From Dehalogenimonas formicexedens (lineage in GTDB: Bacteria; Chloroflexota; Dehalococcoidia; Dehalococcoidales; Dehalococcoidaceae): a stretch of DNA of 64,000 nucleotides. The position numbers and the translations under genes were made by a program. The first letter of the stretch is position 1; each line of letters opens with the position of its first letter. Of the stretch, positions 4,431-52,455 are shown in pieces. The stretch spans positions 124,001-188,000 of the forward strand of contig NZ_CP018258.1 of NCBI RefSeq assembly GCF_001953175.1, written 5' to 3'. Below the pieces are notes generated by a model. The model had not been told where the DNA came from, did not search any database, and saw only the letters and a program-made list of their open reading frames with translations.

Positions 4431-4470
4431 AAAAGAAAAACCGGTCCGAAATAGCTTTCGGGGCCGGTTT
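4431..4470 (-). terminator. Intrinsic terminator 1 in leader of giant gene
   Basis: On the minus strand an AAACCGG/CCGGTTT outer stem (4464-4470 with 4438-4444) and a CCGAAA/TTTCGG-type inner stem surround a 4-nt loop. They are followed by a U-rich run, UUUUUCUUUUUU (4440-4429). The upstream arm of the stem shares bases GGUUU (as AAACC, 4466-4470) with the pseudoknot of element 1, so pseudoknot and terminator cannot form fully together. Confidence 0.75.
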
Positions 4471-4530
4471 CACCATTTGCTCCTCGCCGCCGAGGTGACC
4501 AGATTACAGGCGGCAGATCATCGCGTCCCA
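4464..4530 (-). promoter_or_regulatory. Structured leader element 1 (candidate riboswitch aptamer)
   Basis: Minus-strand RNA can form helix P1 (4514-4509 with 4491-4486, GCCGCC/GGCGGC). The P1 loop segment GGUCACC (4500-4494) can pair with downstream GGUGAAACC (4474-4466), giving an H-type pseudoknot directly overlapping terminator 1. A mini-ORF AUG AUC UGC CGC CUG UAA (4521-4504) spans the 5' side of P1. Element 2 has the same layout with compensatory changes. I do not recognise it as a named riboswitch class. Confidence 0.6.
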
Positions 4531-4557
4531 TGTATAGATCATGGTACCTGGACCAGA

Positions 4558-4682: not shown

Positions 4683-4733
4683 GGTTTATTGCCTCCTCCA
4701 AAACAATAAACCGGCCTTACGTCAGGCCGGTTT
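4683..4733 (-). terminator. Terminator 2 and mutually exclusive SD-loop hairpin
   Basis: A perfect 10-bp stem (4733-4724 with 4717-4708, AAACCGGCCT/AGGCCGGTTT on the minus strand) is followed by a moderate U-rich run (AUUGUUUU). The 3' half of this stem overlaps GGTTTATTG (4712-4704). That segment can instead pair with CAATAAACC (4691-4683) in a 9-bp stem whose loop contains GGAGGAGG. The two hairpins compete, which suggests a switch rather than a plain terminator. Confidence 0.6.
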
Positions 4734-4795
4734 CACTACTTGCTCCCCGCAACCTAAAAGTGACCAATTACAAGCTGCGGATCATTACATCCTGG
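4729..4795 (-). promoter_or_regulatory. Structured leader element 2 (paralogue of element 1)
   Basis: P1 is CCGCAGC/GUUGCGG (4780-4774 with 4753-4747) and the pseudoknot helix is GGUCACU/AGUGAAACC (4765-4759 with 4737-4729). Relative to element 1 one P1 pair changes from C-G to A-U, and the closing P2 pair changes from C-G to U-A, both keeping pairing. The mini-ORF here is AUG AUC CGC AGC UUG UAA (4785-4768). It is upstream of element 1 in the transcript and has its own terminator. Confidence 0.6.
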
Positions 4796-4800
4796 AATTA

Positions 4801-5099
4801 CCATCGTAAGACTAGAACATATGTAAAATCAAGATGCCGTAACCTCACTTTAACTCACTTTTTGAAGCATTTTGAAAAAATAGAGATGAATCATAGGCGG
4901 GTAAGTCATGATGGCGGTCAAAGAAACCTTACAGATCGTAATGAAATAATTAGAGAATCGAGGTTATGAAGGCCGCTTTTTTCAGTGTTTTACCCACCCA
5001 AGATGCGTAGAAGTACGTATTGTCAAAGTATAGATTTGAGTATAGCCTGTCATTAAGGGAATTCATCTTTTGCCTCCTCCCGTGTGAGGATACCGATAA
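4801..5099. other. AT-richer spacer upstream of leader elements
   Basis: This stretch is visibly AT-richer than its surroundings. A possible minus-strand -10 (TACATATGTT) lies near 4815-4825, but no convincing -35 is seen. Besides the 38-codon minus-strand frame at 4950-5066, a plus-strand frame from 4911 reads 12 codons to TAA and then continues open to 5033. No known gene was recognised. Confidence 0.4.
4950..5066 (-). CDS. Candidate 38-aa ORF with perfect ribosome binding site
   Basis: GGAGGAGG (5080-5073) lies 6 nt before ATG 5066, an ideal spacing. The frame encodes 38 residues starting MNSLNDRLYSNLYFD and ends TAA at 4950. It contains many Tyr, Phe and Asn residues and resembles no family I know. 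It could be the first translated leader ORF of the giant gene's transcript, or a small independent gene. It abuts the divergent DedA gene start. Confidence 0.35.
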   Translation of the reverse strand: MNSLNDRLYSNLYFDNTYFYASWVGKTLKKAAFITSIL

Positions 5100-48037: not shown

Positions 48038-48864
48038 CGCAAGGCCTCGGCGGCTGCCTGCCGCATGACGTCACGGGGCGCTGGTTGGCCGGTCCAGAGT
48101 TCAAAAGCAAGGGCGCCCTGTTCAAGCAGCATCTCAAGCCCGCCCATGATTTTGCAGCCGGCGGCTTCGGCTTCCTGCAACAGGCGGGTTTGCCTGGGGC
48201 GATAGACCGTGTCGAATACGAAGAGTCCCTGCTTCAGGAAGGACGCGAGCAGCGGGGTAGAGCCGACATCGGGGGTCATCCCCAGGCTGGTGGTGTTCAC
48301 CACGAGCGAAGACCCCTTCATCGCAGATTTGAGCCCGGACTCCGATAACTCAAAGCTCAAGGCCCCGGACTCCCTGGCAAGATTGACCGCAGACTCATGG
48401 GTCCGATTGAGGATGGTGACGGTGGCGCCGGCGTCCCGCAACGCGAAAACGACCGCCCTGGCCGCGCCCCCGGCTCCAAGGACTACGGCTTTTTGACCCT
48501 TCGGTTCGAAGCCGCCTTGCCTGAGAGCGGCCAGAAAACCGGGGGCGTCGGTGTTGTAGCCGGTCAGTTTGCCCTGGGTATTCACGACGGTGTTGACCGC
48601 GCCGATACGTTTTGCGGCAGGGTCGATCTCATCCAAAAAGGGCATCACCGCCGTCTTATGGGGGATGGTGATATTGGCGCCCCTGAAACCGAGTCCGCGG
48701 ATGACATTGACCGCTTCAGCCAGGGCGGCCGGCGGGACCTGAAAAGAGAGGTAAACGAAATCAAGGTCCAGCGCCTGGAATGAGGCGTTCTGCATCGCCG
48801 GGGAAACGGAGTGGGCGACCGGGTTGCCGATGAGGGCAACCATTTTCGTATCGGTGTTGATCAT
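48034..48864 (-). CDS. aroE: Shikimate dehydrogenase
   Basis: ATG 48864 is chosen: SD GAAGG lies just upstream and it overlaps the aroD stop by ATGA. 276 residues. IGNPVAHSVSPAMQNASF (shikimate site), NITIPHKTAVMPFLDEID (catalytic Lys), NTDAPGF, VLGAGGAARAVVFAL (NADP) and LEMLLEQGALAFELWTG are present. It reduces 3-dehydroshikimate. Confidence 0.95.
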   Translation of the reverse strand: MINTDTKMVALIGNPVAHSVSPAMQNASFQALDLDFVYLSFQVPPAALAEAVNVIRGLGFRGANITIPHKTAVMPFLDEIDPAAKRIGAVNTVVNTQGKLTGYNTDAPGFLAALRQGGFEPKGQKAVVLGAGGAARAVVFALRDAGATVTILNRTHESAVNLARESGALSFELSESGLKSAMKGSSLVVNTTSLGMTPDVGSTPLLASFLKQGLFVFDTVYRPRQTRLLQEAEAAGCKIMGGLEMLLEQGALAFELWTGQPAPRDVMRQAAAEALR

Positions 48865-49514
48865 ACCTTCATCCGCCTGTAAATTTCGGCCAGTTGAGAA
48901 ACGGTCAATTGCCCGGGGGCAGATGGCTTGCCGGAATCGAGGGCGGCGTAGGTAAAAGGAGCGCCGCACAACGGGGCCATAACCCGGCTGGTCACTCCCG
49001 CCTCTCCCATGGCGAAGGCGACCAGGCTGCTGCCCGGGAACTGGTTATATAATCCTAATATATTGACATTGTCGCTGACCGCGTTAGCGGTGGTCACCAG
49101 CTTACAGATATCGGCGCCGGCGGCAAGCTGACGTTTTATAAGGAAGGGCAACAATTCTGGCGAAGGCGTCCCGTCCAGATCGTGATGAGAGATGAGGCAT
49201 CTGGCCTTTTTCTTGACCGCGGCGACCATTTCGCCGACGGTGGGGGTGATCAGTTCCAGATCGACCATGGAAGCTCCCAGATCCAGGGCTTTCATCAGTT
49301 CTTCCAACCGGGAGCTTTCCGAACCCTGCCACGTACCGCCCTGGGCAGCCATCCGGTTGGTGGCGATCCAGGGGCTGGTCAGATTCCCGGCGACGGCAGG
49401 CCATTCCGGTCCGATAAGATCGATCCGGACCTCAAAGAGATTGACCAGGGGCGCGGCGGCTCTAATTGCCGCCTCGTCAGCTTCGGTGATGACGCCGCAG
49501 ATTTTAAGTTTCAC
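48861..49514 (-). CDS. aroD: 3-dehydroquinate dehydratase, type I
   Basis: 217 residues, a TIM-barrel Schiff-base enzyme. EVRIDLIG near residue 28, catalytic His in ISHHDLDGTPS and Schiff-base Lys in GADICKLVTTA are all present. It dehydrates 3-dehydroquinate to 3-dehydroshikimate. Type I, rather than the type II more usual in many Gram-positives. It overlaps aroB and aroE by 4 nt each. Confidence 0.93.
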   Translation of the reverse strand: MKLKICGVITEADEAAIRAAAPLVNLFEVRIDLIGPEWPAVAGNLTSPWIATNRMAAQGGTWQGSESSRLEELMKALDLGASMVDLELITPTVGEMVAAVKKKARCLISHHDLDGTPSPELLPFLIKRQLAAGADICKLVTTANAVSDNVNILGLYNQFPGSSLVAFAMGEAGVTSRVMAPLCGAPFTYAALDSGKPSAPGQLTVSQLAEIYRRMKV

Positions 49515-50590
49515 CCTCTCAACGCCTCGATCGCTTCGTTCGGCTCGATACCGTCTTTTATGATGACGTTACCTATGCCGGCAGGCAGAACGAATTTCAG
49601 CTTGCCGGCGGTTTTTTTCTTGTCATGGCTTATCGCTTCGATGAAAGCGCCTGATCGGGCACCGGCGTCGAAAGCGCCCGGCAATCCGGCGGCGGCGATA
49701 ACGTTGATAATCCGATCGTTGTCTGCTCCCGACAGCAGGTTCAAAAGCCGGGATAAACGCGCTGCGGCCGCCATGCCCGCGGCCACCGCCGCCCCGTGCT
49801 TCATTTCGAATCTGGTGATCGTTTCCAAGGCGTGGCCGAAGGTGTGCCCCAGGTTCAAATAGTTGCGGATTCCCGAATCCCGCTCGTCCTGTTCCACGAT
49901 GCGCGCCTTGACCACAGCCGAACGCTCGACGATGAAGCTGAGCGCCTCCGGTTCCCGATTCAATATTCGCGGCATGTCACTTTCGAGAAATGCAAAGAGT
50001 TCGGCATCGCCGATGATCGCCGATTTAATCACCTCGGCCATCCCGTTGCGTAATTCGTCGATCGGTAAAGTCGACAGGGTTGAGATATCGGCCACGACCA
50101 TCCTGGGCTGGTAGAAAACCCCGGCCATATTCTTGAGGCTGCCGACGTTGACCGCCACCTTGCCGCCGATACTGGAATCAACCTGCGCCAGGAGCGTGGT
50201 CGGAAGTTGAATGAAAGGCACTCCCCGCTGGTAGGTGGCGGCGACAAACCCGGACAGATCGCCGATGACGCCGCCGCCGAGGGCGATGATCGGCGTACCG
50301 CGTTCAGCCTGCTTTTTCGAAAGGTCTTCGTAGAGGTGTCCGGCGGTCACCAGGGATTTGTAAGCCTCTCCTCCGGGGACCAGGACCAGCTCCGGGCTGA
50401 ACCCGGCTGAACGCAACGTGCCGAGGAGACGGTTGCCATGCAGCCCGGCAATGTCCGGGTTGGTGACAATCATCAACCGCCCGAGGAACCCGGCTTCCTT
50501 TAATAGATCCGGCAGTTGGCCGAGCAAGCCCTGGCCGATGTGGACAGGGTAGCCGCGGTCACTAAGATCGACGCAAAGCTGAACTGACAT
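49511..50590 (-). CDS. aroB: 3-dehydroquinate synthase
   Basis: 359 residues. NAD motif GGGVIGDLSGFVAATYQRG, DSSIGGKVAVN, metal ligands in MAEVIKSAII, NLGHTFGHALE and KHGAAVAAGM. This is the canonical AroB, in the aro operon, in contrast to the cyclase at 8826-9929, whose equivalent motifs differ. It starts 4 nt after the aroF stop. Confidence 0.95.
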   Translation of the reverse strand: MSVQLCVDLSDRGYPVHIGQGLLGQLPDLLKEAGFLGRLMIVTNPDIAGLHGNRLLGTLRSAGFSPELVLVPGGEAYKSLVTAGHLYEDLSKKQAERGTPIIALGGGVIGDLSGFVAATYQRGVPFIQLPTTLLAQVDSSIGGKVAVNVGSLKNMAGVFYQPRMVVADISTLSTLPIDELRNGMAEVIKSAIIGDAELFAFLESDMPRILNREPEALSFIVERSAVVKARIVEQDERDSGIRNYLNLGHTFGHALETITRFEMKHGAAVAAGMAAAARLSRLLNLLSGADNDRIINVIAAAGLPGAFDAGARSGAFIEAISHDKKKTAGKLKFVLPAGIGNVIIKDGIEPNEAIEALRG

Positions 50591-50594
50591 GGCG

Positions 50595-51644
50595 CTATTT
50601 TACGGCAATCTTTCTCAGCTGTCTCGCCGAGTCGATGATGTCTTTCAGTTCAGACGGCTGGATCATCTGGGCGGCGTCGCAACGCGCTTCCTCGGGACGG
50701 TCGTGGACTTCTATCATCAGCCCGGCGGCGCCGGCGGCTATCGAGGCCAGGCTCATCGACCGGATGAGGTCACGCCGCCCGGTGGCGTGGCTGGGATCGA
50801 CGATGATAGGCAGATAGGTCTCCTTCTGGATAACGGGCACCGCCGCCAGGTCGAGCATGTAGCGGGTGAAATTCTTGCCCTTGCCCAGCGGCACGATGCC
50901 GCGCTCGCACAGGATGATGTCCTTGTTGCCCTCGGCGGCGATATACTCAGAGAAACAAAGGAACTCCTCTATAGAGGCGCCGAAGTGACGCTTGAACATC
51001 ACCGGCAGCTTCTTGCGGGCGGCGGTCTGGAGGAGATCCTGGTCGTACATGTTGCGGGCGCCGATCTGGATCATATCGACGTAGTGGCTCACCAGGTCTA
51101 CCTGGGCCTCGCCGCGGACCTCGGTCACCACCGGCATGCCGAATTCCCGGCCTGCGTCCCTCAGCCAGGTGAGAGCCTCGATAGCTTCTTCAGTACCGGC
51201 CGAACCGAGGCCTTGGAAGGAGTGGACGGAGGAGCGGGGCTTGAAGACGCCGCCGCGGAGGATCTGGGCACCGGCGGCCCTGCATTTTTCAGCGATGCGG
51301 AACAGGTCGTCATGGTTTTCGACAGCGCACGGCCCGGCGATGAACACCGGCTCGTCGCCGCCGAGTTCGACGTCGCCGATCTTGACGACGCGGGTGCCGG
51401 TCTCGCCGTAGGCGCTGGAGTATTCACGGTTTATCAGTTTGTAGGGCGCTTCGATCATCCTGGCCTCCTTTACTCCGGGAAGGGCTGCCAGGTGGGTAAA
51501 GTCCGCTTTGGTCTCATCGCCGATGAGGCCGATGATGGTGAGATAGGCGCCGCGGGAGACATCGGTTCTCAGACCGACCTTTGCCACTTCGTCGACGACG
51601 TGCTGCACCTGCTCCGGGGTGGCGTCCTTCTTCATGATGATCAT
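50595..51644 (-). CDS. aroF: DAHP synthase, AroF type with N-terminal ferredoxin-like domain
   Basis: 349 residues, first shikimate-pathway step (PEP + erythrose 4-phosphate). Residues 1-70 form a ferredoxin-like regulatory domain (MIIMKKDATPEQVQHVVDEV); the barrel has FIAGPCAVEN, KPRSSVHSFQGLG and DPSHATGRRDLI, characteristic of the Thermotoga/Bacillus-type (Ibeta) enzyme. A tiny ORF ATG AAC AAA TGA (51652-51641) with SD AAAGGAAA overlaps its start as ATGA, perhaps serving for translational reinitiation. The attenuator lies just upstream. Confidence 0.95.
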   Translation of the reverse strand: MIIMKKDATPEQVQHVVDEVAKVGLRTDVSRGAYLTIIGLIGDETKADFTHLAALPGVKEARMIEAPYKLINREYSSAYGETGTRVVKIGDVELGGDEPVFIAGPCAVENHDDLFRIAEKCRAAGAQILRGGVFKPRSSVHSFQGLGSAGTEEAIEALTWLRDAGREFGMPVVTEVRGEAQVDLVSHYVDMIQIGARNMYDQDLLQTAARKKLPVMFKRHFGASIEEFLCFSEYIAAEGNKDIILCERGIVPLGKGKNFTRYMLDLAAVPVIQKETYLPIIVDPSHATGRRDLIRSMSLASIAAGAAGLMIEVHDRPEEARCDAAQMIQPSELKDIIDSARQLRKIAVK

Positions 51645-51691
51645 TTGTTCATTTTCCTTTCCGAATTTCTGTTGAAAGTCCCCTATAAACT

Positions 51692-51717
51692 GAAAAATCC
51701 TCCACTTGGGAGGATTT
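51692..51717 (-). terminator. Attenuator terminator of the aro operon
   Basis: AAATCCTCC (51717-51709 on the minus strand) pairs with GGAGGATTT (51703-51695) around a 5-nt loop, followed by TTTC. The first arm can instead pair with GGGGAGG (51771-51765) inside the leader peptide's coding sequence, forming an antiterminator. Confidence 0.85.
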
Positions 51718-51746
51718 GTGCTTTGTTTTTGGTGTAACCGGTGCTT

Positions 51747-51830
51747 TTACGCGACGACGCCGTACCTCCCCGACGTGCCCTGCGGGCACCAGGTAAAGTA
51801 GTAATAGACGTAATATTTGCGCATCGACAT
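51747..51830 (-). CDS. Aromatic amino acid leader peptide (27 aa) of the aro operon
   Basis: ATG 51830 to TAA 51747-51749. The peptide contains the run YYVYYYFTW (residues 6-14): five Tyr, one Phe and one Trp, plus another Tyr at 23. GTGCCC/GGGCAC (hairpin just after the run) and GGGGAGG near the end match the segments of a transcription attenuator. It lies between the operon promoter and the terminator. The promoter's -10 box ends 7 nt before the ATG, so the peptide is probably read from a leaderless mRNA. Confidence 0.9.
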   Translation of the reverse strand: MSMRKYYVYYYFTWCPQGTSGRYGVVA

Positions 51831-51837
51831 TTCGGTA

Positions 51838-51866
51838 AAGATAACACGGGCTAAAAAGGTTGTCAA
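51838..51866 (-). promoter_or_regulatory. Promoter of the aromatic operon
   Basis: TTGACA (51866-51861), exactly 17 nt, TATCTT (51843-51838). The only gene-like item downstream before aroF is the leader peptide, starting at or next to the transcription start. Confidence 0.85.
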
Positions 51867-51875
51867 GGGAGGTGA

Positions 51876-51899
51876 GGGGGGAGCCATGCGGCTCCCCCT
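51876..51899 (-). terminator. Hairpin between bacterioferritin and aro promoter
   Basis: gggggagcc (51877-51885) pairs with ggctccccc (51890-51898) around atgc. There is no U-run, so it may be a weak or factor-assisted terminator for the bacterioferritin gene. Confidence 0.55.
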
Positions 51900-51987
51900 G
51901 ATTAGGATTGCGATTTTTGTCACCGGCTGACCGGGGGGTTCCTTTTCTTCAGTGCTCTCCAAGCTGCGGGAGAGGAATAATCGGAAG

Positions 51988-52455
51988 TTATTCGACCCGG
52001 GTGGACAGGAAGACCTGGATGCCCATCTGGCCGATCTGGTCCTGGGTCGTCTCGATCTCGTCGACGTGGCCGTCTTCATCGTCGAGGATGGACTGGAGAA
52101 GATCGCGGGTGGCGTTGTCGGCGACATCACGGGCAAGCTTGACGGCGGTGTTGTAGGACTTGACGGCGCCGTTCTCCAGCATGAGGTCGTTCTCGAACAT
52201 CTTGGGGACGTCGGCGCCGATATACATCTTGCGATACTCCGAAACGATGGGAACACCCTCGAGGAAGAGGATGCGGCTGATAAGTTTCTCGGCGTGCTTC
52301 ATCTCGACGATGGCGCGTTTCTGGATCGTCTTGTGGAGCTTCTCGAAGCCCCAGTTTTCGCACATCTCGGCGTGAACCATGTACTGGTTGGTGGCGGTGA
52401 GTTCGTCGGCCAGAAGTGAATTAAGGGTCGCAATAAGCTGGGTATCGCCTTTCAT
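51988..52455 (-). CDS. bfr: Bacterioferritin
   Basis: The 155-residue four-helix protein has ferroxidase-type residues in LADELTATNQY, CENWGFEKLH and EMKHAEKLISRILFLEG, with a Met in the EMKHA position that is the haem ligand in bacterioferritins. It stores iron. GGAGGC lies before ATG 52455. Expression is likely iron- or stress-linked, but no operator is visible. The C terminus (STRVE) is short. Confidence 0.93.
   Translation of the reverse strand: MKGDTQLIATLNSLLADELTATNQYMVHAEMCENWGFEKLHKTIQKRAIVEMKHAEKLISRILFLEGVPIVSEYRKMYIGADVPKMFENDLMLENGAVKSYNTAVKLARDVADNATRDLLQSILDDEDGHVDEIETTQDQIGQMGIQVFLSTRVE

Follow-up and report, generated by a model that had tools for sequence, protein, structure and literature searches.

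Putative Attenuator Ahead of the aro Operon

The shikimate (aro) operon of Dehalogenimonas formicexedens is probably controlled by a ribosome-mediated attenuator whose Tyr-rich leader peptide would be translated from a leaderless RNA. This reading is built on sequence comparison. The element lies within the window, that is, the whole 64,000-nucleotide stretch of DNA that was analysed, and its features are collected in Table 1 together with the genes that follow it. The ORFs past aroD resemble, judging from their sequence, aroE and aroK, which we take them to be.

Table 1. Predicted features of the aro leader, the genes downstream of it and a second leader peptide found elsewhere in the genome.
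Feature	Position	Strand	Basis or comment
-35 hexamer TTGACA	51866-51861	minus	promoter scan
Extended -10, TGT-TATCTT (TG-N)	51838..51846; hexamer 51843-51838	minus	10/12 matches, TG present
Predicted transcription start region, A-A-A	51832-51830	minus	deduced from the 7-nt -10-to-ATG gap
Leader peptide ORF MSMRKYYVYYYFTWCPQGTSGRYGVVA, 27 codons, stop TAA 51749-51747	51830-51747	minus	orthologues in 8/8 genus genomes
Control codons TAT TAC GTC TAT TAC (Tyr)	51801..51815	minus	read from sequence
TAC TTT ACC TGG, directly after the control codons	51800-51789	minus	read from sequence
Predicted hairpin P1, arms 51800-51784 / 51780-51763	51763..51800	minus	-17.6 kcal/mol, z -2.7
Predicted antiterminator, GGGAGG 51770-51765 with CCUCCC 51713-51708	51708..51770	minus	fold of 51789-51700 and 49-leader pairing test
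Predicted intrinsic terminator, AAATCCTCCCAAGTGGAGGATTT then TTCAGTTTAT	51717-51695	minus	-11.0 kcal/mol, z -3.6
aroF, DAHP synthase with ferredoxin-like domain, first structural gene	50595..51644	minus	Pfam PF00793, PF18152; NCBIfam NF006421 over cut-off
aroB, 3-dehydroquinate synthase, next in operon	49511..50590	minus	Pfam PF01761, PF24621
aroD, type I dehydroquinase, next in operon	48861..49514	minus	Pfam PF01487
Second leader peptide MFTGRFGYTFAFTRRTRVRLGRSNMN	L083, about 1501-1420	minus	relatives L127-L136

For comparison, 52 DAHP synthase loci of Dehalococcoidia were examined, paralogues at 41-51% identity and fragments having been left out of the locus set, and the 49 loci with an aromatic leader peptide and a recognisable promoter were counted. 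The three dropped loci were L058 and L057 (the latter in G044), both second DAHP synthases lacking the aromatic leader, and L025, excluded for its decayed leader and unclear promoter. L058 (G000:C1:587500-589200), the second DAHP synthase locus in the D. formicexedens genome, has a T-run hairpin ahead of the gene. Ten of the relatives are metagenome bins of Dehalococcoidia, one of them labelled only Chloroflexi, and five of these ten match other genomes of the same order at every position of the 200 nt that precede aroF. The eight genomes of the genus measure 1.7-2.1 Mb, and all eight carry many reductive dehalogenase genes; the sister genus is presumably Dehalococcoides.

Promoter Position and Predicted Transcription Start

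The aro promoter is the sole promoter-like site in a scan of 51600-52000, where shuffled sequences lead one to expect 0.3, and its -35 and -10 elements are separated by a 17-nt spacer. The earlier note had placed the end of the -10 box TATCTT 7 nt before ATG 51830, and this was confirmed: the seven nucleotides TACCGAA (51837-51831) lie between the hexamer and the ATG (51830-51828) on the minus strand. Transcription from sigma-70 promoters begins 7-8 nt past the -10 box, with a possible variation of a few nt. At that distance the leader RNA would begin at 51831 or 51830; its 5′ UTR would be 0-2 nt, within which an SD is impossible, and the DNA upstream of ATG 51830 lacks an SD as well (duplex energy +0.1 kcal/mol).

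The spacing of 7-8 nt is kept in all eight genus genomes even though the spacer and the upstream DNA have diverged, a recurrence that argues against a chance distance between promoter and ATG. With ATG, GTG and TTG all allowed, the first start codon past the -10 is ATG in 8/8 genus rows. The position of the promoter and its conservation point to a start at the start codon or within a few nt of it. The leaderless start of an attenuator peptide proposed in the earlier note is retained as the best reading, now backed by comparison across genomes, with the exact start nucleotide standing as a prediction.

A short-leadered attenuator would arise if transcription started slightly upstream, start sites being known to shift by a few nt around the -10, or if translation began at a second in-frame ATG at 51824, which lies 13 nt past the -10 and likewise lacks an SD; either way the leader would be 6-10 nt long and without an SD. 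We consider this arrangement unlikely, because the closest relative (L003) has GTT in place of the second ATG while its first ATG likewise stands 7 nt past the -10, and in each of the six remaining genus members a single ATG precedes the aromatic codons, at a gap of 7-8 nt.

The leader might instead be made mainly on read-through RNA from the ferritin gene that lies upstream on the same strand (52455-51988), with the promoter playing a minor part. In D. formicexedens the reading frame of the leader stays open for a long way upstream, and no T-run terminator was found in the interval between the ferritin gene and the leader. A G+C-rich hairpin in this interval (51876-51899, minus strand), upstream of the aro promoter, has no T-run on the minus strand, so that read-through could occur. 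Against this stand the exact TTGACA in 48/49 leaders and the TG-N extension of the -10 in 45/49, an in-frame stop 36 nt before the ATG in four of the eight genus members, and the lack of an SD before ATG 51830. Taking both sides, we judge read-through to be a very improbable main source of the leader, and initiation from the aro promoter, at or next to the ATG, is the reading followed below.

Leader Peptide and Predicted RNA Switch

An aromatic codon run, encoding YYVYYYFTW, stands ahead of the DAHP synthase gene, and each of the 49 leader peptides contains at least five aromatic residues. An intrinsic terminator is predicted before the first gene, with a terminator-like hairpin in 49/49 rows. 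The predicted folds further contain an antiterminator and a competing hairpin, P1, which overlaps the control codons. In the predicted fold, P1 sequesters GGGGAGG (51771-51765); a fold of 51789-51700, which omits the 5′ arm of P1 and leaves the terminator incomplete, shows instead the pairing of GGGAGG with CCUCCC. All three structures, P1, antiterminator and terminator, are predicted in 8/8 genus members, among which changes in P1 preserve pairing (for example, GGUGCCC-GGGCAC vs GGUGCCU-AGGCAC).

Covariation was assessed by permutation across the 49 leaders. Pairings between each leader and its own terminator averaged -17.5 kcal/mol, compared with -15.2 kcal/mol for swapped partners and -9.5 kcal/mol for shuffled leaders, and none of 2000 permutations was as low as the observed value, although relatedness inflates such a test. 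In the D. formicexedens row, the own antiterminator pairing (-12.4 kcal/mol) is no better than the swapped mean (-14.3 kcal/mol), so the pairing signal stems from the 49-leader set. The fold of the whole leader is unremarkable (z -0.9), with the 5′ end paired with the region near the stop. Low 5′-end structure was considered as a leaderless signature and dropped, the mean over the 18 short-gap rows (-2.5 kcal/mol) being not clearly beyond that of shuffles (-2.8 kcal/mol). No Rfam family was found at the leader at the gathering threshold. Elsewhere in the window, two cyclic di-GMP-II riboswitch aptamers lie in tandem on the minus strand (4455-4537 and 4716-4801), both above the Rfam gathering score.

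That the locus holds no attenuator at all, with a chance small ORF beside a promoter and a terminator of other function, is hardly credible, since 49/52 of the loci examined show the aromatic-rich peptide, the antiterminator and the terminator at the DAHP synthase gene, and the covariation test gave 0/2000.

Attenuation requires a ribosome close behind RNA polymerase. In the mechanism that we propose for the leaderless attenuator, RNA polymerase would start at ATG 51830 or at most 2 nt from it, and a ribosome would load on the 5′-terminal AUG upon its emergence and translate the aromatic run; as for leaderless mRNAs in general, initiation would be of the 70S type. When charged aromatic tRNAs are abundant, the ribosome would move on, P1 or the ribosome itself would mask GGGGAGG, the terminator would form and transcription would stop. 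When tRNA-Tyr (and perhaps tRNA-Phe or tRNA-Trp) is uncharged, the ribosome would stall on the Tyr codons and cover the 5′ arm of P1, and the freed GGGAGG would pair with CCUCCC of the terminator, allowing the operon to be transcribed. Sequence and comparison show the promoter, its spacing, the ORF and the three predicted pairings with their conservation; the exact start site, the 70S-type initiation, the stalling and the amino acid sensed are what we infer from this arrangement. An AUG-first leader would permit the earliest possible ribosome loading, and the sensor would hinge on the pathway by which ribosomes initiate on leaderless RNAs.

Probable Leaderless Starts in the Genome and a Second Leader Peptide

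The pattern TTGACA-N16-18-TANNNT-N6-9-ATG has 11 matches in the genome, compared with none for the reversed control. Of the 11 pattern ATGs, eight start an ORF 90 aa or longer, compared with a baseline of 22% among 11,238 ATGs in a 400-kb sample (binomial probability 0.0005), and two of the remaining three belong to leader peptides, namely the aro leader and the second leader at L083. From the 11 vs 0 matches, the eight ORFs and the two leader peptides, leaderless starts look usual in the D. formicexedens genome. At a gap of 10-13 nt, matches are nearly as frequent (eight in the genome, one being the aro promoter with the second ATG), and three of these eight lead into an ORF of 90 aa or more. 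A strict promoter/ORF histogram over 464 kb was too sparse for a leaderless peak to be visible; it contained three promoters that stand at gaps of 5-10 nt from an ORF 100 aa or longer. No obvious leadered attenuator was seen in the genome at gaps of 10-21 and 24-27 nt, a scan that weaker promoters could escape.

The second leader is Phe/Tyr-rich and apparently leaderless, and stands with a terminator before a gene for an AMP-binding acyl-CoA ligase. Judged by eye, its gap is 6-9 nt in all ten family genomes with the ligase, which one of the 11 genomes is without.

Apparent Switching Between Leaderless and Leadered Starts

Among the 49 Dehalococcoidia leaders, counted with ATG starts only, the -10-to-ATG gap falls into two classes: 18 rows have 6-10 nt and 31 have 13-41 nt. 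One row stands at 13, and the values 11, 12, 14 and 15 are unoccupied. All three genomes of the sister genus have a gap of 9 nt. Over the 20 nt that precede the ATG, SD-like pairing averaged -1.0 kcal/mol in short-gap rows vs -4.0 kcal/mol in long-gap rows; it reached -4 kcal/mol or lower in the UTR of 14 of the 31 long-gap rows, so a clear SD is missing from some leadered rows. Certain assignments involved choices: the -10 box was picked by hand in L026 (gap 13), L027 (gap 8), L037 and L049, and so was the start of L031 (gap 34, with an upstream ATG alternative that gives 13). In L020 a further ATG stands at gap 20; in L010, L011, L012 and L043, in-frame GTGs occur upstream, at gaps of 18-20.

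When the two gap states are mapped onto a phylogeny of the 49 DAHP synthases, eight changes are needed, at least six of which are forced by well-supported branches; such counts carry no information on direction. Shuffled labels need 14.8 changes on average, and none of 500 shuffles needed as few as observed. With L020 recoded as leadered and L026, L027 and L031 dropped, seven changes are still required; dropping L020 as well leaves seven, at least six of them forced by well-supported branches. The sister loci L030 and L046 share the promoter and a near-identical peptide start (MLNVSQ), and differ by 9 nt in the length from -10 to ATG: L030 has a gap of 8 (leaderless) and L046 a gap of 17 with AAGG (leadered).

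The leaderless mode appears to be common to the family and, by these comparisons, to have been exchanged repeatedly among remoter relatives. More tentatively, and as a proposal that could well fail, we suggest that selection has made leaderless initiation part of the attenuator design in two operons throughout Dehalococcoidaceae, and that the aro attenuator has repeatedly switched modes across Dehalococcoidia while its promoter, peptide and switch were kept. If true, this switching would be a natural experiment on how the mode of ribosome loading tunes attenuation, and L030 and L046 would form a ready-made natural pair for testing the effect of initiation mode.

Comparison with Known Systems

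The earlier note had set the leaderless aro leader against the SD-led trp, his and phe leaders. That contrast is incomplete, because leaderless leader peptides have been published for Sinorhizobium meliloti, Corynebacterium glutamicum and Streptomyces lividans; the leaderless attenuator is therefore a kind already known. For S. meliloti trpL, PMC7298713 describes an RNA that begins at the ATG of the leader ORF. According to that source, trpLE(G) shares with the aro leader, where the start is predicted, an RNA starting with the leader ATG, a leader peptide, a terminator and an amino-acid biosynthetic operon; it differs in being Trp-specific, in its 14-aa peptide, in belonging to Alphaproteobacteria, in its experimentally known start and in a peptide and RNA that act in trans.

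In C. glutamicum, the ilvBNC transcript is described as beginning at a distance of 1 nt from the start codon of ilvL (PMC11857589). The near-leaderless start (predicted for aro) and the three-hairpin model are common to both, whereas ilvBNC concerns branched-chain amino acids, belongs to Actinobacteria and is given as experimentally tested (PMC11857589). The DAHP synthase gene aroF of C. glutamicum is also preceded by an aromatic leader peptide, with Phe-Tyr-Phe (PMC4046766, PMC3890552), in another phylum (PMC4046766). For S. lividans, RNA-seq in PMC8079986 is reported to include several leaders transcribed leaderless among leuL, trpL, ilvL, thrL and metL; these resemble the aro leader, as predicted, in their leaderless leader peptides, and differ in amino acids and phylum and in that some have no clear terminator. 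Mycobacterial polycysteine leaderless sORF attenuators (Canestrari 2020, by its title as cited in PMC13236596) are, to go by that title, likewise leaderless sORFs rich in the sensed amino acid, which there is cysteine.

A computed survey gives leaderless genes in 4 of 12 Chloroflexi genomes, at about 5% there (PMC3160421), and a 2010 terminator survey presents leader peptides as known only from Proteobacteria and Actinobacteria, to which it adds Firmicutes (PMC2965389). In titles and abstracts of the literature on Dehalococcoides, Dehalogenimonas and Chloroflexi, in which few subscription journals are represented, and in portions of PMC3160421 and PMC4833913, the attenuator is undescribed. As far as these searches show, what is new relative to the known systems is the phylum, with leader-peptide attenuation extended to Chloroflexota, and the repeated swapping of leaderless and leadered starts in one attenuator family.
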